A DNA stretch of 59,745 nt from Phycisphaerales bacterium Planc_01 (GTDB lineage: Bacteria > Planctomycetota > Phycisphaerae > Sedimentisphaerales > Anaerobacaceae). Within the stretch, counting starts at the first letter, position 1. Every line of letters starts with the position of its first letter. Positions 1-17,274 of the stretch are shown here, in pieces. The notes below the pieces were generated by a model. That model did no database searches and was not told where the DNA came from. It saw only the letters and a list, made by a program, of their open reading frames with translations. The stretch spans positions 335,082 through 394,826 of the forward strand of contig LVBB01000016.1 of NCBI GenBank assembly GCA_001603075.1, in the 5' to 3' direction. The translations under genes and the position numbers were made by a program.

Positions 1-670
1 CGGAAAACCCGCCGTATGGCTCGGCTCGGCCGGCCAGCCATTGCAGTGCGGATGTGGGCAGCGGCGCTTCGAGATAGTGAAAGATCGTGATCACCGCCGC
101 GGTGGCGGCAGTGGCGCTAACTGTCATCGTCGGTTCGTTCGAGAAACCGCCGTCGGGCATCTGGAGAGAACGAACGGAATCGAGCACACCGGTCGGGTCC
201 AGATCATCCACCAGAAGGTCCTGACAGACACCCAAGGCCAGGAAGCTGCCGTACACATGACCACGTTCAGCCCCGGCTGATACGCTGAAACCTCCATCGC
301 TCGCCCGAAACTCCATCAGGCGCGCGATCAGGGTCCGTCGTGTACCCGAATCGAATGCGTCACGCGCGATATCCGTGAGGTTGACCCGACATCGGACCAG
401 GGAGGCCAGGTGCACCAGGTCCAGGGACTGGCCCGTGCTGAAGCGATGAAGATACTCTGCAACGCGCTCGTATGGTATGTGCGCTTTCAGAGCCAGGGAC
501 GCCTCCAATCCGAAGACGGTGTAATACAGATCGCTCTTTCCGTCCCGACCCCGAAAGCCCCCGTCGTCATTGAGATGGCGGCCGAGAAACTCTCGGACCG
601 CCTCGACGGAATCGCCCAGGGCCTCGGCGGCCTTAGTCACGGCGTGGCGCATGTCGAGGCGGATGGTCAT
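1..670 (-). CDS. Prenyltransferase/squalene-cyclase-type repeat protein (C-terminus cut by window edge)
   Basis: Translating the minus strand from the ATG at 670 gives an open frame of about 223 codons that runs off the left edge. It has spaced repeats of the alpha/alpha-barrel type seen in protein prenyltransferase beta subunits and squalene/terpene cyclases: NDDGGFRG near residue 35, ASDGGFSVS near 124 and MPDGGFSN near 171, each followed by a helix. The start overlaps the 3' end of the upstream polyprenyl synthetase gene by 38 nt, so the two are probably co-translated. A cyclase or prenyl-binding role fits the neighbour, which would supply a polyprenyl diphosphate, but the repeat also occurs in non-enzymatic proteins. 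The catalytic DxDD or QW motifs of true cyclases are not visible in the part present. Family assignment is fairly secure; the reaction is not known. Confidence 0.75.
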   Translation of the reverse strand, partial: MTIRLDMRHAVTKAAEALGDSVEAVREFLGRHLNDDGGFRGRDGKSDLYYTVFGLEASLALKAHIPYERVAEYLHRFSTGQSLDLVHLASLVRCRVNLTDIARDAFDSGTRRTLIARLMEFRASDGGFSVSAGAERGHVYGSFLALGVCQDLLVDDLDPTGVLDSVRSLQMPDGGFSNEPTMTVSATAATAAVITIFHYLEAPLPTSALQWLAGRAEPYGGFS

Positions 671-2318
671 TGCAGCAGCCCATGATCTCGAAGTCGTTGA
701 ATATCTTGCCCATTACGCGGCGCAGCAGGCCCTTGAGGTTGGCGTTCTTCAAGGCGATCAGCGAGCCGATGGCCTGCGCCTTGTAGCTCTCCATCAGTCG
801 CATCGCCGCCAGCTCGACCTCCGGCGCCGAGACAATCTGGCGCACCTGTTGCCGATCGGCATCCGTCGCGGACGGGGCCCACTGCCGCTCGATCTGCTTT
901 CTCTTCGCCTCGTCACCCATCTCGTAGGCCAGGGCCAACAGGACCGACGGCCGCCGGCTCGCACACAGATCGATCCCCTCGGGGCTGCGAAGGTCGTCCA
1001 GATCATCGCGAATCTGATACGCGATGCCCAGAGACTCGCTGTATTGCCTCAGCACGCTGCCGACCCGATCGTCGCAGCCGGCGAGGATCGCCCCGAGGCG
1101 CAGGGCCACCTCGAACGCCGGCGCCGTCTTCATACGAAAGATCTCCAGCACCTGGTCCACCGTCAGCGGCCTCGGCGCCCGGGCCCACGCCAGCTCGCGG
1201 CCCTGGCCCAGGCACAGCGTACGATGGCCTTGCACGGCGGCATTCAGGAGTCTCGCCTTGCGTTCGTCCGAGCCGTCGGTCTCGACGAGAAGCCGATAGC
1301 CCTCGCCCAGAAGCAGGTCGCCGACGTTCAGCGCGATGGGAACACCGTGCTGCGAATGGAGCGTCTGGTCGCCGTACCGCTCCGAGTCGCCATCTTCGAT
1401 ATCGTCATGAACGAGCGACGCTTTGTGGAAGCACTCCACGGCGACAGCAATCCGTTGCAGGTCCGGATCTGTAGCAGGCAGGTCGTCGGTCGAGAGGGCC
1501 TTGTACGCGCAGACACCGAGGAAGGGACGCCAGCGTTTGCCCGCCTTGGCCATCCAATCCAGGGCCACCCGCTCGGTCTCGTCGGGCTGCGGCGCAATCA
1601 ATTGCGCGAGGGCTTCCTGCGAGAACCACGCGTTGACCTGTTCGTGCAGCGCATCAAGGTCGAGACGCCTGGTTTGATCGTCCGTTGTTTGATAGATCGC
1701 CTCCCAGAGCCAGCCGAGGTCCACGCTGGTGTCGGCGCAGCCGTCTCGCAGGAGGGGAATCGCCACGCCGGGGACCGCTCCGGCCTCCATGTACGGAAAC
1801 ACCCGTTCCAGCACCGACAGGCAACTGGCGCCCACGACCGCTTCGATACGTCCCGTCTCGATCAGGCCCATCACAACGGGTGAACCCTCAGCGACGAGGA
1901 CGGCATAGCCCAACTGCTCCGCCTGACTCTTCAACTCGTCGATGGCGCATCGGCCGCAATGCTCGCAAAGCAAGCCCAGATCGTCGAAGCTCGCCGGGCA
2001 TTCCGTGCTGCTCCGCAAGCACTTGGGCAGAAGCAGCAGACGTTTCTCGTAGGGAATAGCCGCCACCGTCTCGCGCCAGACCTCGTTGTTGACGAGAACC
2101 GCGGCGTAATCGGTGTACTTGCGATCCATGCCGGCCTGTTCGAGCACGGCCTCCGTGTGAGCCCGCAGCTCGCCGATCGACAGGGGCGGAACCGGCCCAT
2201 GCGCCTCGACGTATTGACGGATGACACCGAGCAAATCGTCGCGCTCCTGCTTGGTCTGTGGGACGTTGTCCTGAGGCTGCCTGACAGGCCGGGCCGTTGT
2301 CACACGGTCATGAGGCAT
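633..2318 (-). CDS. DUF116 / polyprenyl (isoprenyl diphosphate) synthetase fusion
   Basis: 561 aa in two parts. Residues about 60-210 match DUF116: a KCLR motif at 99-102, CPA at 107, and a C-x2-C-x2-C group at 118, 121 and 124, which suggests metal binding. Residues about 225-540 are a trans-isoprenyl diphosphate synthase: GKRWRP near 260, first aspartate-rich motif DDIED at 305-309, FRMKTA near 395 and second motif DDLDD at 438-442. Both Mg-binding motifs are intact, so chain elongation of allylic diphosphates with IPP is expected. The ordinary enzyme is about 320 aa, so the extra N-terminal domain is the odd feature. The start ATG at 2318 overlaps the end of the radical SAM gene by 11 nt. 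The chain length of the product cannot be read from the sequence. Confidence 0.85.
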   Translation of the reverse strand: MPHDRVTTARPVRQPQDNVPQTKQERDDLLGVIRQYVEAHGPVPPLSIGELRAHTEAVLEQAGMDRKYTDYAAVLVNNEVWRETVAAIPYEKRLLLLPKCLRSSTECPASFDDLGLLCEHCGRCAIDELKSQAEQLGYAVLVAEGSPVVMGLIETGRIEAVVGASCLSVLERVFPYMEAGAVPGVAIPLLRDGCADTSVDLGWLWEAIYQTTDDQTRRLDLDALHEQVNAWFSQEALAQLIAPQPDETERVALDWMAKAGKRWRPFLGVCAYKALSTDDLPATDPDLQRIAVAVECFHKASLVHDDIEDGDSERYGDQTLHSQHGVPIALNVGDLLLGEGYRLLVETDGSDERKARLLNAAVQGHRTLCLGQGRELAWARAPRPLTVDQVLEIFRMKTAPAFEVALRLGAILAGCDDRVGSVLRQYSESLGIAYQIRDDLDDLRSPEGIDLCASRRPSVLLALAYEMGDEAKRKQIERQWAPSATDADRQQVRQIVSAPEVELAAMRLMESYKAQAIGSLIALKNANLKGLLRRVMGKIFNDFEIMGCCNDHPPRHAPRRD

Positions 2319-3879
2319 ACACCTGCTCCTTCTCCACCACTGTCGGAATGGAACGGTCCATCTGTCTTCGCAATCTCCTGAAGGTCCGTCGCCAGGTCAT
2401 CACCTCGCCGTGCCCGAGAGTCTGCATGAACGCACGTCGGGCCCACGAGACGCCGCCGGCACGCTGATTGTCCCAGAACAACTTCGGGACCATCTTGAAA
2501 TTCTGCTCGTAGCAGGTTCGATAGAGCTCCAAATGCTCCGGCGTCATCTTCGCCAACGTGAATCGCTGCCGGTCGGCCTCCTCCCCGGAGGCCATCGGCT
2601 CGTAGAAGATGGGGAAAATCACGGCGTTCTTTGCCGCCAGGTCCCGAACCAGTTCCAGGGTGGCCACGACGTCGTCCGGGGTCTCGCCCGGCATGCCCAG
2701 CAGGACACTGACGACGGGAAAGAACCCGCAGCGCGTCGTGCGGTCCGCCGTCTCGCGAACCATCTGCCCCCAATCGTCCGGATCGAAGGGCGCGACCTTG
2801 CCGGGGCTGTTGGCGGCCACCAGATGCCCGTTGGCGCTTTCGACGCCCATATTCACCCATAGATACTCGCTCGGCTGCTCCCAGGTCAAGAGACGCCGGA
2901 TCTCGCGAAGCTGCTCGTCGGTCAGTTGCAGAACCGATGTCACATTCGCGTGGTCGATCTGCATGAACGACAGCCCCTTGATCTGCCGCATCCGTTCCAG
3001 CAGACCGCACAGCTTCTCGAAATCGGGACGCAGCCCCTTGGCGCCGTATCGGAAGAAGTCCTCGCTGCCGCTGACGACCGCCTTGAGCCCCCCGGCCACG
3101 TTGGTTTGCAGGTCCGCCAGGATCGTATCGGGATCAAGGTGCTTCATTCCGTGACGCGCCATCGCGCAGAACTTGCACCCCCTGCCGCAGCCGCGCGACA
3201 ACTCGACGATCCCGAGCAAGGATGGACTGCAAATCGGCTGGATGCGATCCGCGCCGATGTCCGCTTCGACCACGTGATGCCCGGGCAGGCGGCCGTTCAG
3301 CAGTTCGGTGAACAGCTCAGGCCCCGAGGCCTCGAAGTAGCCTTGGAAGACCACGTCGATATCGACATCGGGTCGCTTGTCCGCATGGGCAATCCACTGC
3401 CAGGCTCCTGCGCCGCCGACGACGATCTTGAAACCATGCCGGCGCTTCAGCGCCGTCAGTTGCTCAAGGGTCTGACGCGTCCATCGCCGGGTGTAGAGTT
3501 CGCCCTTCCAGAAGTTGGAGGTCGTCGTGTTGCTCATGCCCATGCCGAGCGGGTCGCTGGAGCTGAAGCCCACGATCTTCACCCACGGACCGATCACGTC
3601 GCCCAGTCGCTCGGGCGTCGTGCAGACCACATCGCCCGGCTCCAGAGTCGTGTATTTCAGCAGCGCCGACTCGACCCGCCGCAGCCCCAAGGGGACCGTT
3701 CGGGCGCGTCCGTCGGCATCGGTCGGCACGGGCGGTGCGAGGAAGTGACGCATGAACGCTTCCGGCACCTGGGTCATCTGCATGGTGGCGAACATGCCGT
3801 CGAAGAGGATGCGATAATCGGCGCTGAGTGTCCGGTCGGCGACGAGGACGACAGCGGGCTGGAGTCGCGACTTAGGCAT
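2308..3879 (-). CDS. B12-binding-type radical SAM protein
   Basis: 523 aa. The start at 3879 was chosen because its ATG overlaps the stop of the upstream Fe-S gene by 8 nt (ATGCCTAA). Residues about 70-200 resemble the Rossmann-like B12-binding region of class B radical SAM proteins, but the cobalamin-ligand motif DxHxxG is not visible. C231, C235 and C238 in CGRGCKFC form the 4Fe-4S SAM-binding motif, followed by a TIM-barrel-type region with GSEDFF, NMGVESAN and LLGMPGETPDDV. Class B enzymes methylate unreactive carbons or rearrange rings. In this operon the substrate may be an isoprenoid or a quinone/porphyrin-like ring, but that is inference from neighbours only. The C-terminus is basic. 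Confidence 0.85.
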   Translation of the reverse strand: MPKSRLQPAVVLVADRTLSADYRILFDGMFATMQMTQVPEAFMRHFLAPPVPTDADGRARTVPLGLRRVESALLKYTTLEPGDVVCTTPERLGDVIGPWVKIVGFSSSDPLGMGMSNTTTSNFWKGELYTRRWTRQTLEQLTALKRRHGFKIVVGGAGAWQWIAHADKRPDVDIDVVFQGYFEASGPELFTELLNGRLPGHHVVEADIGADRIQPICSPSLLGIVELSRGCGRGCKFCAMARHGMKHLDPDTILADLQTNVAGGLKAVVSGSEDFFRYGAKGLRPDFEKLCGLLERMRQIKGLSFMQIDHANVTSVLQLTDEQLREIRRLLTWEQPSEYLWVNMGVESANGHLVAANSPGKVAPFDPDDWGQMVRETADRTTRCGFFPVVSVLLGMPGETPDDVVATLELVRDLAAKNAVIFPIFYEPMASGEEADRQRFTLAKMTPEHLELYRTCYEQNFKMVPKLFWDNQRAGGVSWARRAFMQTLGHGEVMTWRRTFRRLRRQMDRSIPTVVEKEQVYAS

Positions 3880-4795
3880 TGCGGCTCTCTTTCTTGTCGC
3901 TGTCTCCGGCCTTCGGGGTGCGCGCCTGGGCTCGGAGGCGCTGCAACTCGGCGCCGGACAGCGAGGCCAGGACGTCATCGGGGATATCAAGGTCGCGCCG
4001 CAGGGCGTCGATCGTGGGACACGGCCCGGCCGGTACGGAGTCCGGCGCATCGGTCGAGAATCGTTTGCGTCCCGGCTCGCGCCGGCGAATTCTGTCGTAA
4101 ACATCGCCGCGCAGCAGGCTACGCAGGTCCGGAGCCGATTCCTGTCGCACCTCGGCCGGCGGCGCGACGTCATCGCCGTTGATCGGGGAATCGGCGTACT
4201 TGGGGAAGATGATCGCACTAGCCGGACACATCCGCGCGCACGCCGGGCAGTTCGTCTTGCAGCCGGCCGGGTTTTGCACCTCCACGCAGCCTTCATCGGA
4301 CAGCCCGTATACCCCGAACAGGCAGAAATTCATACACTGCTTGCAGTTGGCGCATCGGTCGTAGTCGATCACAGGGAACCAAGGCACCCAGCCTTCTTCC
4401 TTCACAGGCAAGGTCGACACGGATGGCAGGGGCGACGCATGCGTCGCCCCCACGAGATCGAGAATTGCGTTTGCGATCTCCTCGGGCGATTGGGTGCGCA
4501 TGTTGAACAGCCGTGTCCGTTGGGGGTTCAGCGGGGTACCGGCGGCCTCGAACAGCCACCGGACTGCCCGCGGAAAGCACGCGACGATCGACAGCGGATC
4601 GGTCTGAGCCCAGTGCCCCAATCTCGGATGGCGGTTGGCCGCCATGCCGCACAGATCGGCTACAGCCTCTACAGTGATGCCGGCGTCGCACAGGGAGCTG
4701 AAGACCTGCTCCTTCACGGCTTGGGGGATGGTTTCATAGTAGGCGCAGCTACAGAACACCACGTGTGGTCGCTTCTCAGTTTGCCCTGCTGTCAT
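3872..4795 (-). CDS. 2[4Fe-4S] ferredoxin-type protein with Cys-rich N-terminal domain
   Basis: 307 aa. Two cluster motifs are visible: C148-x2-C151-x2-C154-x3-C158 and C179-x3-C183-x2-C186-x3-C190-P. The N-terminal 110 residues contain C15, C17, C36, C49 and C73 in a context (CSCAYYE, ADLCGMAA) reminiscent of the cysteine-rich parts of heterodisulfide-reductase-like subunits; that likeness is only suggestive. It is the first gene of the set with the radical SAM enzyme and may supply electrons to it. Residues 116-122 (GATHASP) are encoded by a perfect 22-bp palindrome at 4429-4450 that belongs to the dispersed repeat family and looks like an in-frame insertion in the linker between the two halves. 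The start ATG at 4795 has only a weak Shine-Dalgarno. Confidence 0.8.
   Translation of the reverse strand: MTAGQTEKRPHVVFCSCAYYETIPQAVKEQVFSSLCDAGITVEAVADLCGMAANRHPRLGHWAQTDPLSIVACFPRAVRWLFEAAGTPLNPQRTRLFNMRTQSPEEIANAILDLVGATHASPLPSVSTLPVKEEGWVPWFPVIDYDRCANCKQCMNFCLFGVYGLSDEGCVEVQNPAGCKTNCPACARMCPASAIIFPKYADSPINGDDVAPPAEVRQESAPDLRSLLRGDVYDRIRRREPGRKRFSTDAPDSVPAGPCPTIDALRRDLDIPDDVLASLSGAELQRLRAQARTPKAGDSDKKESRNA
4429..4450. repeat. Dispersed palindromic repeat, copy inside the Fe-S protein gene
   Basis: A perfect 22-bp palindrome (arms GGGGCGACGCA/TGCGTCGCCCC). It has the same GGGGCGA...TCGCCCC ends as the four other copies but a different centre (GCATGC instead of an ATNATNAT type). It is translated in frame as part of GATHASP. 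Confidence 0.8.
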
Positions 4796-5017: not shown

Positions 5018-6253
5018 CTACGACCCGGCGTGAATGTCGTAGACCAGCAGTGCATCGCCATGGCGGACGTACAACCTTCGGTTGGCGATGGTCGGGTGGG
5101 CCCAGTGCTCGTTGGTCCCGCCCGAGATCGTGAACTGCCCTGCCGGCCTGTACCCATCGAGGCTCGGCTGCACGAGAATCATCGTCCCATCCTGGGTGTA
5201 GACGTAGAGCATGTCGTCGGCGGCCACGACCACACCCATTTTGGTGGCCGGGGCATTCCATTTCACCTGGCCTGTCTTCCAGTCCAGGCAGACGAGACCC
5301 CGGTTGCCGCTCTGGGCCGTCCCGTAGATGCAGCCATCGAGCAGGACCGTCCCCTGCATCTGGCAATCCAGCGTCTTGTCCGTCCACCTGGCGGCCGCGG
5401 CGGTCTGGGCCAACGGCAGCATCGCGCCACCGGCGCCCATCCCCGATGCCACGTAGACCATTCCGTCGGCGTAGAGCGGCGGATTGGGCTGAACCCCCGC
5501 GCGGTGGGGGTATTCGTGCTGCCAGACGACCTCGCCCGACCCAGCATCGACGGCGACCACGGATTTCGCCAGCATCGTCAGGACCAGCTTTCGACCGTTA
5601 TGGTTGACCAGCCTGGCGGAGCAGTAACCTGACGGCTGACCGAGCCCCTTGGTCTGCCAGAGGGTCTCGCCCGTCTCCCGATCCAGAGCCACGAGAGACG
5701 CATCGGGGCCGCCTGGCGTGCAAATGACCTTGCGTTCATCGACGAGAACACACTCAGCGAAGCCAAATGCCGCCTTCTCGGCGCCAAATCGCTCCAGCAG
5801 ATCGATGGTCTTGAGCACCTGTCCCTTGTTCGCGTCGAGAATGATCAGTCTGGTGAAGCCGGTCATCACGAAGACTCGGCCGCCATCCACGGTCGGCGTG
5901 CCGCGCGTTCCCGTCGGAGCGGGCCCCTCCTTGACGAATTCCGGGCCGTAGGCCACCTTCCACTTCCGCGAGCCGTCCTCGCCGAAAGCAAACAGCACAC
6001 CCTGGTTCTGGTTGTCCATGCCGGTCACATAGACGGTCCCGTCGACAACGACCGCCGAAGAGTAGCCTGGGCCCAGCCCGTCAGCGGACCAGGCGAGTTT
6101 CGGCCCGCCCTCCGGCCATTGCTTCAGCAGACCCGTTTCCGGGAATACCCCGTCCCCCGCCGGCCCGCGAAACCGAGGGCAATCCCCCGCTTGAGCCGCC
6201 ACGGCCAGACCGAAGGCCCCTATGAACATCCAAACAACCGTCGTCCGCTTCAT
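5018..6253 (-). CDS. Exported PQQ-type beta-propeller repeat protein
   Basis: 411 aa from the ATG at 6253, which has an AGGAGG ribosome site; a longer frame starting at 6343 lacks this. Residues 1-22 (MKRTTVVWMFIGAFGL...) are a signal peptide. The mature protein starts with PRFRGPAGDGVFPETGL, typical of planctomycete BamB/PQQ-like proteins. Repeated blades follow, with motifs such as VYVTGMDN, RVFVMTGF, VALDRETGETLWQTKG and VVAVDAGSGEVVWQHEYP. The alcohol-dehydrogenase catalytic features that need PQQ are not evident, so a binding or scaffolding role is as likely as catalysis. It is monocistronic as far as visible. Confidence 0.85.
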   Translation of the reverse strand: MKRTTVVWMFIGAFGLAVAAQAGDCPRFRGPAGDGVFPETGLLKQWPEGGPKLAWSADGLGPGYSSAVVVDGTVYVTGMDNQNQGVLFAFGEDGSRKWKVAYGPEFVKEGPAPTGTRGTPTVDGGRVFVMTGFTRLIILDANKGQVLKTIDLLERFGAEKAAFGFAECVLVDERKVICTPGGPDASLVALDRETGETLWQTKGLGQPSGYCSARLVNHNGRKLVLTMLAKSVVAVDAGSGEVVWQHEYPHRAGVQPNPPLYADGMVYVASGMGAGGAMLPLAQTAAAARWTDKTLDCQMQGTVLLDGCIYGTAQSGNRGLVCLDWKTGQVKWNAPATKMGVVVAADDMLYVYTQDGTMILVQPSLDGYRPAGQFTISGGTNEHWAHPTIANRRLYVRHGDALLVYDIHAGS

Positions 6254-11399: not shown

Positions 11400-12842
11400 A
11401 TGACACGTTTGAGGACAAGACGTCACGTCTGGCTGCTACTGGGACTGCTGTGTTTCGGCGGCGGTTGCAGCCGGGCAACCAGGAAGCCGGCCATGCCGGT
11501 ATCGGTGCCTGAGTCGTTTTCGGATAGCGGCCAATCGCCTGTGGCAAACGACTGGTGGAAGGACTTCGGCGACCCGACGTTGAACGACCTGATCGCCAGG
11601 GCCCTGACGGAGAACTTCAGTCTGCGAACGGCCTGGGATCGACTGGCGCAGGCGGAGGCTGTCGCACGCAAGACCGACGGGACACTCTGGCCACAGGTCA
11701 ACCTCAATGCCGGCTACCGACGCAATCGTCAGATCGTCCAGGACCAGGGGGTGTACGGCAACCTCTACAGCGTCGGTGTTGCCGCCAGCTACGAGGTGGA
11801 CCTCTGGCGGCGTCTGCGGTCGTCACAGGAGGCGGCCCGACTCGACGCCCAGGCCAGCCGCGATGCGGTCGATGCCGCCGCGATCACACTGGCCGCCTCG
11901 GTCGCCAACACGTGGTGCCAATTGGCCGAGGCCAAGGCACTCGTACGCATCGCCCAAAATCAGATCGAGAACAACCGGCAGGTCCTCGAGATCGTTACCA
12001 TCCAATTCCGCAACGGCGCAGCTTCGGCCGCCGACGTTCTGCGGCAGCGGCAACTGGTCTCGGCCACCGAGGGCCAGTTGATCTCGGCGCAGGAGACTGT
12101 CGAACTGCTGCAGCACACCCTCTCGGTGTTGATCGGTCGGCCCCCCGAACGAGCGTGGGAGCAGATGACGGTGGCCCTGCCCGAGCTGGGCCCCATGCCC
12201 GAGGTGGGCGTTCCCTCTGAGATACTCTGGCGCCGTCCCGACGTCCGCCAGGCCTATTGTCAGGTGCAAGCGGCCGATCAGCGGCTGGCCGTGGCGGTTG
12301 CCGATCGGTATCCACGACTGAGTCTGTCGGCCAGTGCCGAGACGACGGCTACGTCAGTCCGCGATCTCTTCGACGACTGGATCGGGAACCTGGCGGCCAA
12401 CGCCGTCCAGCCGCTGATCGACGGGGCACAACGAAAGGCCGAAGTCGAACGGCAGGAGGCGATCGTCTCCGAGCGAATCCACGCATGGGGGCAGGCCCTG
12501 CTCGATGCGATTCAGGACATCGAGACGGCGCTGACCCAGCAGCGTCAACAAGCGCTGCTGCTGGAGAGCGTTCAGCAACAACTGGAACTGGCCGAACGGA
12601 CATACGGCCACAACCGGGAGCGATTCATGAAGGGCCAGACGGACTACATCCGGGTATTGGAGTCGCTTCAGAGCCTGCAATCTCTGGAGCGGGACGTGGT
12701 CAGGGCCCGGCGTACATTGATCCAACGTCGCATTGATTTGTATCGTTCCACGGCCGGGCCATGGGACCTGCTCCGGCCCGAACTGGCGCAAACAACCACG
12801 GCTACACAGAGCACCATCGAAGACAATCAGGTGAGGTTATGA
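11400..12842 (+). CDS. Outer-membrane efflux factor (NodT/TolC type)
   Basis: 480 aa. The N-terminus has a hydrophobic stretch ending in FGGGCS, so Cys23 may be lipidated as in NodT-type proteins. The two repeated halves of the OEP family are visible, with DWWKDFGDPTLNDLIARAL near 50 and WRRPDVRQAYCQVQAADQ near 278. It would form the trimeric channel through the outer membrane for the RND pump encoded downstream. It starts 19 nt after tetR with an AGGAAG ribosome site and ends in a 4-nt ATGA overlap with the membrane fusion gene. Confidence 0.9.
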   Translation: MTRLRTRRHVWLLLGLLCFGGGCSRATRKPAMPVSVPESFSDSGQSPVANDWWKDFGDPTLNDLIARALTENFSLRTAWDRLAQAEAVARKTDGTLWPQVNLNAGYRRNRQIVQDQGVYGNLYSVGVAASYEVDLWRRLRSSQEAARLDAQASRDAVDAAAITLAASVANTWCQLAEAKALVRIAQNQIENNRQVLEIVTIQFRNGAASAADVLRQRQLVSATEGQLISAQETVELLQHTLSVLIGRPPERAWEQMTVALPELGPMPEVGVPSEILWRRPDVRQAYCQVQAADQRLAVAVADRYPRLSLSASAETTATSVRDLFDDWIGNLAANAVQPLIDGAQRKAEVERQEAIVSERIHAWGQALLDAIQDIETALTQQRQQALLLESVQQQLELAERTYGHNRERFMKGQTDYIRVLESLQSLQSLERDVVRARRTLIQRRIDLYRSTAGPWDLLRPELAQTTTATQSTIEDNQVRL

Positions 12843-14125
12843 CAACACCGCGCGATTCAAAGACAGATGTGGATTCAACGCCACGACGGTGGCTGCCCAG
12901 GATCCTTGGAGGCACGCTGAAGGTTGTGCTGACATTGTTGCTCGTGGGCGGAGCGGCGGCCGTCTACAAGCACCAGATGGACACCAGCCCCCGGGCCCAG
13001 CGGCAGACGCCGGCCCGTCAGGCCAGGCTCGTCCAGGTGATTGCCGCACAGAAGGGCCGCCATACCACCACCGTCAGCGCGATGGGACCGGTCATCCCCG
13101 CCCAGCAGGTGACGCTGCACCCGCAGGTCGCCGGCCAGATCGTGGAGGTGTGCGAGACACTCCTTCCGGGCGGCCTCATCGAAACCGGCAAGAAGCTGAT
13201 CACGATCGATCCGCGCGACTACGAAGTCCAGGTCCGGCAACAGCGAGGGAACGTGGCCCGGGCGGTCGAGAACCTGAAAGTCGAACAGGGCAACCAGGCC
13301 ATCGCGCGACAGGAATTCGCGCTTCTCGGCGAGATCATAGCCGAAGAGGACCGCGAGCTGGTGCTGCGCGAGCCCCAACTGGCTTCGGCCCAGTCGGCTT
13401 GGGAGTCGGCGAAGGCGGCCCTGGAAAAGGCCGAGCTGGATCTGGCCCGATGCGAGATTGCCGCCCCGTTCAACGCTGTCATTCAGGACAAACACGTCGA
13501 CCTCGGAGCGACCGTTTCGGCCGGTTCACAGTTGGTGACCCTGATCGGGACCGACGAGGCCTGGGTCGATCTGAAGGTGCCGATCAGCCAACTCCGATGG
13601 ATCACGATCCCCCGGAAAGATGGGGACACCGGTTCGAGCGTGAGAATCTACAACACCTTGGCTTGGGGACCGGAGGAGTTTCGCATGGGGCGCGTGGTGC
13701 GTCTGTATGGTGAGATCGAGGCCGAAGGGCGCATGGCGAGGCTGCTGGTGGCGGTCGACGATCCGTTCTGTCTGAAACCGGCCAACCAGGACCAGCCCAA
13801 ACTGCTGATGGGGACGTTCGTTCAGGCCGAAATCGAAGGGCGTACGCTCGAATCGGTCTACCCCATCGCCCGGCCGCACCTGCGCGACAACAACACCGTG
13901 TGGATCATGGACGCCAACGATCAGCTGGAGATCCGCCCCGTGCAGATCGTCTATCGCGGGCCGGAGAAGGTGTTTGTCAGCGACGGGCTTGAGGAGAACG
14001 AGCGACTCATCCTCACTGACATCGCCGCACCGGTGGCAGGCATGCCGCTGCGTCTGGGCGTTCCGGGCGCCGGAGACGTCCAGCAAGAAACAGCCGTGGC
14101 TCAGGGACAAGGAACACAGCCATGA
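12839..14125 (+). CDS. RND efflux membrane fusion protein (HlyD/AcrA type)
   Basis: 428 aa from the ATG at 12839, which overlaps the stop of the preceding gene (ATGA). A single membrane anchor spans about residues 27-48. The biotinyl-lipoyl-like half near 95-130 contains VIPAQQVTLHPQVAGQIVEV, followed by a coiled-coil hairpin (about 145-215) and the second lipoyl half (LARCEIAAPFNAVI). Beta-barrel and membrane-proximal domains follow. It bridges the inner-membrane RND protein and the outer-membrane channel. It overlaps the RND gene by 4 nt, so the three pump subunits are translationally coupled. Confidence 0.92.
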   Translation: MTTPRDSKTDVDSTPRRWLPRILGGTLKVVLTLLLVGGAAAVYKHQMDTSPRAQRQTPARQARLVQVIAAQKGRHTTTVSAMGPVIPAQQVTLHPQVAGQIVEVCETLLPGGLIETGKKLITIDPRDYEVQVRQQRGNVARAVENLKVEQGNQAIARQEFALLGEIIAEEDRELVLREPQLASAQSAWESAKAALEKAELDLARCEIAAPFNAVIQDKHVDLGATVSAGSQLVTLIGTDEAWVDLKVPISQLRWITIPRKDGDTGSSVRIYNTLAWGPEEFRMGRVVRLYGEIEAEGRMARLLVAVDDPFCLKPANQDQPKLLMGTFVQAEIEGRTLESVYPIARPHLRDNNTVWIMDANDQLEIRPVQIVYRGPEKVFVSDGLEENERLILTDIAAPVAGMPLRLGVPGAGDVQQETAVAQGQGTQP

Positions 14126-17100
14126 GCGATTCGAAACCTCTGACCAACCAGACGGAGCACCATGGGGTCATCGCCTGGATGATCCACAACCGCATCACAC
14201 CCAACGTCATGATGGCGGTCTTCCTGCTGGGCGGCCTGTTCATGGCGACGCGCATCAAGCAGGAGGTGTTCCCCGAGTTCGATCTGGGCATCGTCACGAT
14301 TCAGGTGGCCTATCCCGGTTCGAGTCCCGAGGAGGTCGAACAAGGCATCATCCTGGTGGTCGAAGAAGCGATTCGCGGCCTGGACGGCATCAAGGAGATC
14401 ACCGCGACCGCGTCCGAAGGGATCGGCCTCGTCACCGCGGAACTGGAGGAAGGCGGTGACCACCAGCGCGTCTATCAGGATATCAAGCAGCAGATCGACC
14501 GCATCATCACGTTTCCGCTGGATGCGGAAGAACCGGAGGTGAGCCTGCGAATCGCCCGCCGCGAAGTGCTCCAAATCCAAATCTACGGCGACACGAGCGA
14601 GTGGGTCCTGCGCGAGCTGGCCGAACAGGTGAGGGACCGCCTTCTTCAGGACCCCCAGATCACACAGATCGACCTGGTTGGCGCCCGCCGGTACGAAGTC
14701 GCCGTCGAACTCGATCAGGATACGCTGCGCACCTACGGGCTGACGCTCGATCAGGTCGCCGAGCGCGTTCGCACGACGAGTGTCGAGATCCCGGGCGGTA
14801 CGCTGGAGACACAGGCCGGCGACATCCTCCTGCGTGTCAACGAACGGCGCAATTGGGCGAAGGAATTCGCCACCATTCCCCTGGTGACCACCGCCGACGG
14901 GGCGGTATTGACCGTCGGCGACATCGCCCGGATCAGTGATACGTTCGAGGAGTCGCATCGCTATGCGACCTACAACGGTTTTCCCGCTGTGGGGATCAGC
15001 GTTTTTCGCGTGGGCAAACAGACCCCCATCGGCGTCTCGGATGCGGTGCGTGCGGCCATGATCGAAATCGAAGAGGACCTCCCTCCCGGTGTCGACTGGA
15101 CCGTCAGCCGGGATCAGTCCAACGTGTACCGCCAGCGTCTGACGCTGCTGCTGAAGAACGCGTTCTACGGCCTGACACTCGTCCTGCTGCTGCTGGGCCT
15201 GTTCCTCGAGCTGAAGCTGGCGTTCTGGGTGACGCTGGGTATCCCCATTTCGTTCCTCGGGTGCTTCCTGTTTCTGCCGGGCATGGACGTCACCATCAAC
15301 ATGATCTCCATGTTCGCCTTCATCATCGCCCTGGGCATCGTCGTCGACGATGCCATCGTGGTCGGGGAGAACATCTATGAGTACCGTCTGCGCGGCATGA
15401 GTTTCATGCGGGCGGCCGCCCTGGGCGCACGGGACGTGCTGCTGCCGGTGACATTCAGTATCCTGACCAACATCGTCGCCTTTATGCCCCTGCTCTATAT
15501 GCCGGGCTTCATGGGCAAGATCTGGCGCGTCGTTCCTTTGGTGGTCATCACCGTCTTTGCCATCAGTTGGGTCGAGAGCCTGCTGATCCTGCCGTGTCAC
15601 CTGGCCCACGGCCACCGCGCGCATGGACGGCGCAGAGGCCCCGTCGGCGTCGTTCAAAACGGCGTCAGCGCGGGCCTGGACTGGTTCATCAACCGGCTCT
15701 ACGCACCATTCCTCGACTTCTGCATTCGCTTTCGCATGGTGACCATCGCCGCCAGTGTCGCGGTCCTGATCGTCGTGGTCGGCTACGTCTTCAGCGGCCG
15801 CATCGGCGTGATCCTCATGCCGCGCATCGAATCGGATCAGTCCGTCGTCACGGCCACACTGCCCTACGGCTCGCCCCTGTCGAAGGCCGAAGAGGTCCGC
15901 GAGCGGCTGCTCCGGACCGCCGAGGAGATGGCCCAGGCCAACGGCGGCGACAAGCTCGTTGAGGGCATCTTCGCCCAGATCGACGAGAACGTCGTCGGCG
16001 TCACCGTCTATCTGACCGATCCGCGCATCCGGCCGGTCAGCACCACGCGGTTCACGCAGTTGTGGCGAGAGCGGACCGGTCCGATCCCCGGCCTGGAGAA
16101 CCTTCTGTTCGAGTCCGACCGCGGCGGACCCGGTCGCGGGGCGGCTCTGACGATCGAATTGAGCCATCGCGACATCGATGTCCTCGACGCCGCCAGTGCG
16201 TCGCTGGCCGAACGCCTGGCCGACTATGCCAACCTGCGGGACATCGACGACGGGTTCACGCCCGGCAAGCAGCAATTGGACTTCAGCCTCACCGAGGAAG
16301 GGCACGCCCTGGGTCTGACCCAGCAGGCGCTGGCCCGTCAACTGCGAAACGCCTTCTACGGTGCCGAGGCCGTGCGCCAGCAACGCGGACGTAACGAGGT
16401 TCGCGTCAAGGTCCGCCTGCCGCGCGCCCAGCGGATTCGCCAGTACGACCTCGAGAACCTGCTGGTCCGCACGCCTCGCGGCACGTTCGTCCCACTCACG
16501 CAGATCGCGGAGGTCCGCCCGGGCCGGGCCTATACCAGCATCACCCGACGCGAAGGCCGACGCACCGTCAGCGTCACCGCCAACGTCGAGCCCATCAGCC
16601 AGACCAGCCAGTTGCAGACGACGCTGGACCAGGAGGTCCTGCCGCAATTGCTGGCCGATTTTCCCGGCCTGTCCTACGCGTGGGAGGGCCGCCAGCAGGA
16701 CATGAAAGAGAGCACCGCCAGTCTCATCCAGGGTCTGGTGCTGGCCCTGTTCGCCATCTACACGCTGCTGGCAATCCCGTTCCGAAGCTACACGCAGCCG
16801 TTGCTCGTGATGATCGCCATCCCCTTCGGCATCGTCGGGGCCGTGCTGGGCCACATCCTGATGGGCTATGCGTTGAGTCTCCAGAGCCTCATGGGCGTCG
16901 TCGCGCTGTCGGGAGTGGTCGTCAACGACTCGCTGGTGCTGATCGACTACGCCAACCGGCGGACCCGAGAGGGCCTGCCGCCCCTCGAAGCGATCCATCA
17001 GGCGGGGGTACGGCGTTTTCGTCCGATCCTGTTGACGACGCTGACCACCTTCGGCGGCCTGGCGCCGATGATCTTCGAGACGAGCCGGCAGGCACGGTTC

Positions 17101-17274
17101 ATGATCCCCATGGCCATCAGCCTGGGCTTCGGGATTCTCTTCGCCACGGCGATCAGTCTCGTCATCGTCCCGTGCCTCTACTCGATCGCCGAAGACGTCC
17201 AGCGCGCTCTTCTGAAGCTCTGGCCTTCCGAAGACGACGACGTTGACCTGGTTCCGGGCGCAACGGGGTCCTAA
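14122..17274 (+). CDS. RND-family efflux permease (AcrB/MdtBC-like)
   Basis: 1050 aa, normal for the family, with 12 membrane segments split by two large periplasmic loops. The N-terminus contains NRITPNVMMAVFLLGG. The TM4 proton-relay signature GIVVDDAIVVGENIYEYR has D409 and D410 intact, and the TM10 counterpart SGVVVNDSLVLIDYANRR is near 930. It exports hydrophobic compounds by proton antiport, together with the two upstream proteins. The substrate is not predictable. The long opposite-strand reading frame over this gene is a codon-bias shadow. Confidence 0.93.
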   Translation: MSDSKPLTNQTEHHGVIAWMIHNRITPNVMMAVFLLGGLFMATRIKQEVFPEFDLGIVTIQVAYPGSSPEEVEQGIILVVEEAIRGLDGIKEITATASEGIGLVTAELEEGGDHQRVYQDIKQQIDRIITFPLDAEEPEVSLRIARREVLQIQIYGDTSEWVLRELAEQVRDRLLQDPQITQIDLVGARRYEVAVELDQDTLRTYGLTLDQVAERVRTTSVEIPGGTLETQAGDILLRVNERRNWAKEFATIPLVTTADGAVLTVGDIARISDTFEESHRYATYNGFPAVGISVFRVGKQTPIGVSDAVRAAMIEIEEDLPPGVDWTVSRDQSNVYRQRLTLLLKNAFYGLTLVLLLLGLFLELKLAFWVTLGIPISFLGCFLFLPGMDVTINMISMFAFIIALGIVVDDAIVVGENIYEYRLRGMSFMRAAALGARDVLLPVTFSILTNIVAFMPLLYMPGFMGKIWRVVPLVVITVFAISWVESLLILPCHLAHGHRAHGRRRGPVGVVQNGVSAGLDWFINRLYAPFLDFCIRFRMVTIAASVAVLIVVVGYVFSGRIGVILMPRIESDQSVVTATLPYGSPLSKAEEVRERLLRTAEEMAQANGGDKLVEGIFAQIDENVVGVTVYLTDPRIRPVSTTRFTQLWRERTGPIPGLENLLFESDRGGPGRGAALTIELSHRDIDVLDAASASLAERLADYANLRDIDDGFTPGKQQLDFSLTEEGHALGLTQQALARQLRNAFYGAEAVRQQRGRNEVRVKVRLPRAQRIRQYDLENLLVRTPRGTFVPLTQIAEVRPGRAYTSITRREGRRTVSVTANVEPISQTSQLQTTLDQEVLPQLLADFPGLSYAWEGRQQDMKESTASLIQGLVLALFAIYTLLAIPFRSYTQPLLVMIAIPFGIVGAVLGHILMGYALSLQSLMGVVALSGVVVNDSLVLIDYANRRTREGLPPLEAIHQAGVRRFRPILLTTLTTFGGLAPMIFETSRQARFMIPMAISLGFGILFATAISLVIVPCLYSIAEDVQRALLKLWPSEDDDVDLVPGATGS

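Follow-up and report, generated by a model that had tools for sequence, protein, structure and literature searches.

Polycyclic isoprenoids such as sterols, hopanoids and tetrahymanol order membranes and leave molecular fossils, and the routes to them start from squalene. Here we describe an operon of Phycisphaerales bacterium Planc_01 (Planctomycetota; GenBank assembly GCA_001603075.1), located at the left edge of a 59,745-nucleotide stretch of contig LVBB01000016.1 (G000:C16:335082-394826 in our numbering; this whole stretch is hereafter the window). It joins genes for an iron-sulfur (FeS) protein, a radical SAM enzyme, a fusion of DUF116 with a polyprenyl synthase (PPS), a repeat protein (REP) and a class II cyclase resembling squalene-hopene cyclase (SHC). 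The operon is found in several groups of mostly uncultured bacteria. Our preferred reading, for which we consider the balance to be about even, is that it is dedicated to a ring-containing polyprenoid lipid whose synthesis would not need squalene.

Hopanoid biosynthesis (SHC family TIGR01507; solved structure AaSHC, 1gsz) is one point of comparison, and it too can involve glycosylation and tailoring by radical SAM enzymes. The operon cyclase is alike in its class II architecture, its DXDD motif and its equivalents of H451, W312 and W489. The operon is unlike hopanoid systems in having a dedicated PPS, in mostly occupying genomes of its class in which the squalene synthase domain SQS_PSY was not found, and in a cyclase with a far lower hopene-cyclase score, Trp at F365, Cys at D421 and another C-terminal motif. 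REP resembles the beta subunit of protein prenyltransferases (Rab GGTase beta, 1dce) in being a single alpha/alpha toroid, but has Leu and Tyr in place of the zinc-site Cys and His. The nearest NCBIfam family to the radical SAM enzyme of the window is the B12-binding family TIGR04013, yet the match reaches only 72.5 bits against a cut-off of 251 and the B12 domain is degenerate. An alternative radical SAM enzyme, described below, has NirJ, AhbC and SPASM-type families among its nearest, far below their cut-offs and in the context of this operon.

The fusion itself is already in print. Makarova et al. 2015 proposed a flavodoxin-like fold and a role in electron transfer for DUF116, and their account includes a DUF116-polyprenyl synthetase fusion, Psta_0175 of Pirellula staleyi (PMC5898192). 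The accessible part of that account covers the fusion only, with no mention of an operon, cyclase, REP or radical SAM partner. We found no description of the operon in the open-licence literature searched, where none of the papers listed names it in its title or at the start of its abstract. The parts come from known families, and their combination is undescribed in that literature. The preliminary description of this DNA knew of no characterised pathway with this exact composition, which agrees with our searches for the operon; the fusion had already been noted.

Layout and recurrence of the operon

Four overlapping genes lie on the minus strand at the window's left edge, with a fifth beyond it and a recurrent neighbour upstream:

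3872..4795, minus strand: FeS protein, 307 aa; predicted electron donor with an N-terminal domain and a ferredoxin-like 2[4Fe-4S] domain
2308..3879, minus strand: radical SAM protein, 523 aa; CxxxCxxC motif; degenerate B12-binding-like N-terminal domain
633..2318, minus strand: DUF116-PPS fusion, 561 aa; DUF116 is residues 1-230 and PPS is residues 231-561
1..670, minus strand: REP, 5' part only; single alpha/alpha toroid; runs off the left edge
G000:C16:333003-334895, outside the window: SHC-like class II cyclase, 630 aa, with DADDTA; fifth gene
5018..6253, minus strand: PQQ_2 beta-propeller protein, lying upstream in the same orientation; recurs as a neighbour, not certainly in the system

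The overlaps are 8 nt between the FeS and radical SAM genes (3872-3879), 11 nt between the radical SAM and DUF116-PPS genes (2308-2318) and 38 nt between the DUF116-PPS and REP genes (633-670). These overlaps are as they had first been read. Pfam returned Radical_SAM at 47.2 bits, Prenyltrans at 37.4 bits (REP) and, within the single 561-aa chain, polyprenyl_synt at 137.3 bits and DUF116 at 117.5 bits, the last above its gathering score of 25. Fer4-type matches of the FeS protein fall below curated cut-offs; its eight Cys are each present in 100% of ungapped rows of a 72-sequence alignment. The top NCBIfam match of the PPS domain (window 633-2318) is a family 2 encapsulin cargo polyprenyl transferase, at 122.9 bits against a cut-off of 450.

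The window edge was considered as the end of a gene or of the operon and ruled out, as a 2-N assembly gap immediately precedes base 1 (L002 17081-17082) and REP is intact, about 300 aa long, in a genome of the same genus (L160). The gap splits REP. Beyond it the sequence resumes in another frame and runs to the REP stop, and comparison with L160 indicates that ~50 nt are missing. The REP stop overlaps the start of the next gene by 4 nt. This fifth gene has SQHop domains and DADDTA, so the cyclase of the operon exists but lies outside the window. The four-gene set of the preliminary description was real but incomplete, cut by the gap with the cyclase beyond it, and the recovery of genes past the left edge that it had proposed yielded both the end of REP and the cyclase.

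Counting the window's own genome, 38 of the 298 genomes of the class encode a relative of the radical SAM enzyme. Search thresholds differed, at 1e-10 for this enzyme, 1e-12 for DUF116 and 1e-50 for the alternative radical SAM. All six domains (FeS, radical SAM, DUF116, PPS, REP and SHC) are present in 22 of 35 class loci around the radical SAM gene, several of which end at contig edges; taken singly, FeS is present in 30, DUF116 in 33, PPS in 31, REP in 27 and SHC in 28. A second set, from named genomes, comprised the best 80 of 194 confirmed loci and shares some contigs with the 35 class loci. Here the six domains are complete in 39 of the 50 loci with room on both sides. The order FeS-rSAM-DUF116/PPS-REP-SHC (rSAM denoting radical SAM) was seen in 36 of the 80 loci and FeS-rSAM-SHC-DUF116/PPS-REP in 16. 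A further order, with PPS, REP, the alternative radical SAM and SHC, was seen in L217 (G382).

Record titles and taxonomy place the operon in Planctomycetota, Verrucomicrobiota, Armatimonadota, Omnitrophota and WS1. Hosts include a metagenome-assembled genome (MAG) of Methylacidiphilum (Verrucomicrobiota), Zipacnadia (Armatimonadota) and Ca. Uabimicrobium amorphum SRT547, on its chromosome (NZ_AP019860). Since the genes recur in 38 of 298 class genomes and in the neighbourhoods read, chance is an unlikely explanation of their linkage. The gene set recurs as a unit across phyla, and the objection that the genes might not be conserved together in relatives fails.

Two radical SAM types in one slot

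C231, C235 and C238 (CxxxCxxC) are invariant in 20 sequences of the radical SAM family, and PF04055 was found in all 20. The enzyme had been called B12-type, of which the radical SAM part stands. The B12 part is weak: besides the low TIGR04013 score, the B12 domain PF02310 matched 5 of the 20 family members (best 1.4e-5) but not the window's own protein. None of the HpnH, HpnP and HpnR families was among the NCBIfam matches of the window's enzyme at E ≤ 0.01.

The DUF116 core was found in 60 of the 298 class genomes, comprising all 38 radical SAM genomes and 22 without that enzyme. One of the 22 encodes an unrelated radical SAM in the same slot. Its best NCBIfam match scores 77 bits against a cut-off of 525, all 25 matches listed are far below cut-off, and its HpnH score is 41 bits against 225. 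This alternative enzyme was found in 21 of the 298 genomes, namely 20 of the 22 and G199. The 60 core genomes contain the first type in 38 cases, the alternative in 20, both in none and neither in two (G151 and G157, with completeness of 60% and 65%). The alternative gene lies in or beside the operon in 14 of the 22 core loci that were read. We rejected the view that exactly the window's type of radical SAM is always needed, as 22 of 60 core genomes are without it and 20 of those have the alternative. Because core genomes follow this one-of-two pattern, a radical step looks obligatory, with either enzyme able to do it, although the pattern is also compatible with two reactions that are not identical.

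A tree of DUF116-PPS requires a minimum of 8 changes between radical SAM types, 3 of them forced by well-supported branches alone. The tree was built by a quick method with SH-aLRT support only, has long branches at L178 and L186, and covers 53 loci, all labelled except L188 and L195; 5 of 58 loci were omitted as having no usable fusion open reading frame (ORF). In the phylum, the alternative enzyme was found in 59 of 294 genomes. Operon genes lie within 1.5 kb in 19 of its best 30 loci and not in the other 11 (L218-L228, many in group f50), where the pathway may be dispersed. One Verrucomicrobia UBA1319 MAG (G300) contains two FeS-rSAM-DUF116/PPS blocks, L196 and L118, with a different radical SAM in each.

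Chain length, cyclisation and squalene

The preliminary description of PPS as a prenyl synthase with both Asp-rich motifs was borne out, and GKRxRP is also intact in the window protein. Our PPS alignment contained 73 rows, one of which has a gap, leaving 72 readable. The first DDxxD is intact in 72 of 72, while the second motif retains D439 in 72, D442 in 67 and D438 in 53 (Asn in the other 19). In every readable row, DDxxD is preceded by Ala at -5 and Ser at -4. Among five solved relatives, the -5 residue is Tyr in 1wy0 and Phe in 5jfq (both geranylgeranyl diphosphate (GGPP) synthases), Phe in 6kd7 (named only as a polyprenyl synthetase), Tyr in 3p8r (geranyltranstransferase) and Ala in 3oyr (trans-isoprenyl diphosphate synthase), which we take to be of the long-chain type. 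The two other synthases of the window's genome read ATLLHDD and YSLVHDD at this site, presumably long-chain and short-chain types by the same residue rule. With Ala at a site that is Tyr or Phe in the solved synthases of GGPP and farnesyl type, PPS likely makes a product longer than C20.

A C20 product would lead elsewhere. PPS would then supply GGPP, from which the SHC-like enzyme would make a C20 diphosphate with two or three rings. Decorated by the radical SAM, this would become a labdane-type diterpenoid, acting as a secondary metabolite and not as a membrane lipid. The two solved relatives that match PPS best carry the name GGPP synthase, and the cyclase counts drimenyl diphosphate synthases (7xq4 and others) among its own. 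However, Ala replaces Tyr or Phe at -5 in all readable PPS rows, the 630-aa cyclase matches SHC (631 aa) rather than the other solved chains listed (501-539 aa), and conservation across phyla would be unusual for a secondary metabolite. We judge a labdane-type product to be unlikely.

Pfam matches of the cyclase (SQHop_cyclase_C, 155.2 bits; SQHop_cyclase_N, 74.7 bits), together with DXDD, place it among class II terpene cyclases in the broad sense. D-x-D-D-T is present in 64 of 66 operon cyclases, the two exceptions being fragments of 179 and 375 aa, and DADDTA aligns to DVDDTA of AaSHC, the closest solved structure. For comparison of residues, the 49 of 66 cyclases within 560-700 aa were aligned to AaSHC and three canonical SHCs of the class, with the roles of single SHC residues taken from general background. 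Equivalents of D374, D376, D377, D447, H451, W312 and W489 are kept in 49 of 49. The same 49 all have Trp at F365 and Cys at D421, and the C-terminal motif also differs; the alignment of the C-terminal active site to canonical SHC is ambiguous and was left uninterpreted. Scores are below cut-off both for the hopene-cyclase model TIGR01507 (115.4 against 431.1 bits) and for a wider squalene-cyclase model (135 against 323 bits). Given that catalytic residues are kept while these scores, F365, D421 and the C-terminus depart from the canonical enzymes, the operon cyclase looks like a competent class II enzyme and belongs to a distinct subfamily. The accessible text of one study reports that SHC variants at F601, F605 or Y420 use geranylgeraniol or other linear terpenes (PMC11165016). 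SQHop_cyclase_C, present in 241 of 298 class genomes, was too unspecific for counting the operon cyclase and was not used for that purpose.

We quantified squalene synthase by searching for SQS_PSY; 116 of the 298 class genomes gave a match, as did 7 of 14 controls. It occurs in 1 of the 38 radical SAM genomes, and none was found in the window's genome. Among the 60 DUF116-core genomes it was found in 9 and not detected in 51. Fisher tests gave 5e-8 and 1e-5, uncorrected for ancestry. A further 20 operon genomes, drawn from the 80 named loci either for depth or to represent other phyla, yielded SQS_PSY in 14 cases. In fairness, squalene synthase is neither required by the operon nor excluded by it. 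Membership in the hopanoid pathway through a hopene-forming SHC was rejected on the failed TIGR01507 cut-off and the presence of SQS_PSY in only 9 of 60 core genomes.

These distributions bear on two ways in which a squalene-like hydrocarbon might still be involved. In one, the SHC-like enzyme would use squalene itself, supplied by neighbours or by a synthase that escaped detection, and the remaining genes would decorate a hopanoid-like triterpenoid. The similarity of the cyclase to AaSHC fits, as does SQS_PSY in 14 of the 20 further genomes and 9 of the core genomes. Yet the search that failed in 51 core genomes succeeded in the 116 relatives and in half of the controls, the cyclase scores far below the hopene-cyclase cut-off, Trp occupies the F365 position throughout, and the operon has its own PPS. 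We consider this explanation very unlikely.

In the other, the FeS, radical SAM and DUF116-PPS proteins would form an oxygen-independent replacement for squalene synthase, deoxygenating or coupling prenyl diphosphates to give a hydrocarbon for the SHC-like enzyme. A Cys-rich domain is physically fused to PPS, with seven DUF116 Cys each at 97-100% of ungapped rows (73 sequences), and the radical partner is apparently obligatory. In addition, SHC-type cyclases can use hydrocarbons as substrates, and most class core genomes yielded no SQS_PSY. Against such a replacement, its chemistry is hypothetical, SQS_PSY is nevertheless present in some core genomes and most of the further ones, and REP is left unexplained. 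It therefore seems quite unlikely to us.

REP had been described as a cyclase- or prenyltransferase-type repeat protein. An AlphaFold2 model of an ortholog (L071; pLDDT 95.4) was compared with solved structures using Foldseek. Four chains of squalene-hopene cyclase (8pak, 8paj) came first by E-value, while by TM-score Rab GGTase beta (1dce_B) stood highest among the matches listed, with 0.75 over the query at an rmsd of 3.1; it is also the top sequence match. Zinc ligands of protein prenyltransferase beta are presumably Asp, Cys and His. In REP the Asp is kept, Cys is replaced by Leu in 20 of 20 sequences and His by Tyr in 19 of 20 (His remains in L131). DXDD is absent from all 65 REP sequences examined, and D47, Y49, Y50, D228, S231, D277, E279 and Y283 are invariant in 20. 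Because DXDD is absent and two of three zinc ligands are lost, REP is probably not the cyclase, a role also rejected on its prenyltransferase-beta-like fold. The toroid likeness to prenyltransferases stands, whereas the cyclase assignment probably does not. The concern that the cyclase-like protein might belong to a non-enzymatic repeat family is thus half borne out: REP is probably not the cyclase, and the true cyclase is the next gene.

REP could instead attach a polyprenyl chain, cyclised or not, to a small aromatic or other acceptor readied by the radical SAM enzyme, making the product a meroterpenoid or prenylated acceptor. Such a role agrees with the likeness to Rab GGTase beta in both structure and sequence, and the matches listed for the REP model include MstE, a cyclase whose structure was solved with farnesyl dihydroxybenzoate. 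It agrees less well with the lost zinc ligands, and no acceptor-biosynthesis genes were noticed among the neighbours scanned, where no search was aimed at them. We rate it improbable, on a par with the labdane-type product.

Proposed pathway and its implications

Under our preferred reading of a dedicated route to a ring-containing polyprenoid lipid, the PPS domain, judged from its motifs, would lengthen an allylic diphosphate beyond C20 into an all-trans polyprenyl diphosphate. The SHC-like cyclase would protonate the far end of this presumed substrate and fold part of the chain into fused rings. REP, judged from its fold, may bind or hand on the prenyl chain, or else remove or transfer the diphosphate head. 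The radical SAM enzyme, supplied with low-potential electrons by the FeS protein and DUF116, would make one modification of the isoprenoid, which the one-of-two pattern suggests is obligatory. In some lineages a GT4 glycosyltransferase encoded in the cluster might glycosylate the product and an MFS transporter move it. The product would be a membrane lipid like hopanoids or sterols, and no proposed step should need O2. An earlier suggestion that the genes are a toolkit for a polyprenyl-derived lipid fits well with these sequences, the product itself being a prediction.

GT4 adjoins PPS in 7 of the 80 named loci (L121-L124, L126, L138 and L142, with L123 assigned by position only), lies beyond REP in L130 and L133, and is further off in four more. 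An MFS protein is inserted in 5 of the 80 (Pfam was run on L072 only).

Several observations weigh against this pathway. The chain-length argument rests on a short residue rule, and the best solved PPS relatives carry GGPP synthase names. REP has neither known catalytic signature (DXDD or the full zinc ligand set), and the equivalent of Y495 is Tyr in only 36 of 49 cyclases. Four of the seven DUF116 Cys are lost in L128. The DUF116 model (pLDDT 80.3) has no PDB fold match at E ≤ 0.001, so we draw no DUF116 mechanism from structure. Inside the class, ancestry confounds the SQS_PSY contrast, much of which runs along family lines, and most further operon genomes do have SQS_PSY. As for the radical step, G199 has the alternative radical SAM with no DUF116 match, and both types occur at high similarity in G300, which belongs to the 20 further genomes and holds the second within its own FeS-FeS-rSAM-DUF116/PPS locus; two more of the 20 have weak second-type matches (146-147 bits). 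GT4 (13 of 80 loci) and MFS (5 of 80) are a minority. Finally, 11 of the 50 loci with room are incomplete, 7 of them without a local SHC. An operon-type cyclase is encoded elsewhere in the genome for four of these (L096 of U. amorphum, L097, L113 and L118) and also for L110 and L115, taken as contigs of G050 and G057; the genome of L148 was not searched for a cyclase.

Other neighbours are more variable. A PQQ_2-type propeller ORF is located within about 4 kb upstream of the operon or inside it in 34 of the 80 named loci, a count made without background control in a family that looks abundant. A CobW-type GTPase, possibly a metallochaperone for the FeS or radical SAM module, is encoded upstream of the FeS genes in L167 (861-1991, by Pfam), and a similar-looking ORF was seen by eye in L096 (7745-8848). 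Just downstream of the cyclase gene are a MarR-type regulator and a thioredoxin/DUF6132 protein (L002 14477-14887 and 13902-14456). Reading of ORFs at 11400-17274 of the window revealed a row resembling an outer-membrane factor, an adaptor and an RND pump. An Rfam scan of the whole window (1-59745) returned no family at gathering score.

Tricyclic terpanes have been called 'orphan biomarkers' of which 'their precise sources are unknown', with tricyclohexaprenol as a proposed precursor, in the accessible part of one paper (PMC9247107); the accessible part of another on cheilanthanes does not discuss their biological source (PMC6618112). A more specific and tentative form of our reading, which we regard as unlikely in all its parts together, is that the product is a lipid of the tricyclopolyprenol type. 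It would be a head-to-tail polyprenyl chain, partly ringed by the SHC-like enzyme and radically modified, made without squalene or oxygen, with two unrelated radical SAM enzymes repeatedly swapped for one obligatory step. The orphan tricyclic terpanes (cheilanthanes) found in sediments and oils would then trace back to this product, a bacterial membrane lipid that has long been postulated.

If the pathway is as proposed, it would be a second route to polycyclic isoprenoids, with its own synthase and a squalene-cyclase relative and with no squalene synthase found. That two unrelated radical SAM enzymes replace each other in one slot is a natural experiment on radical enzyme function, and the operon provides a functional setting for the uncharacterised DUF116 domain. 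It would also offer a testable candidate source for tricyclic terpanes, and may help explain fossil lipids of unidentified makers.

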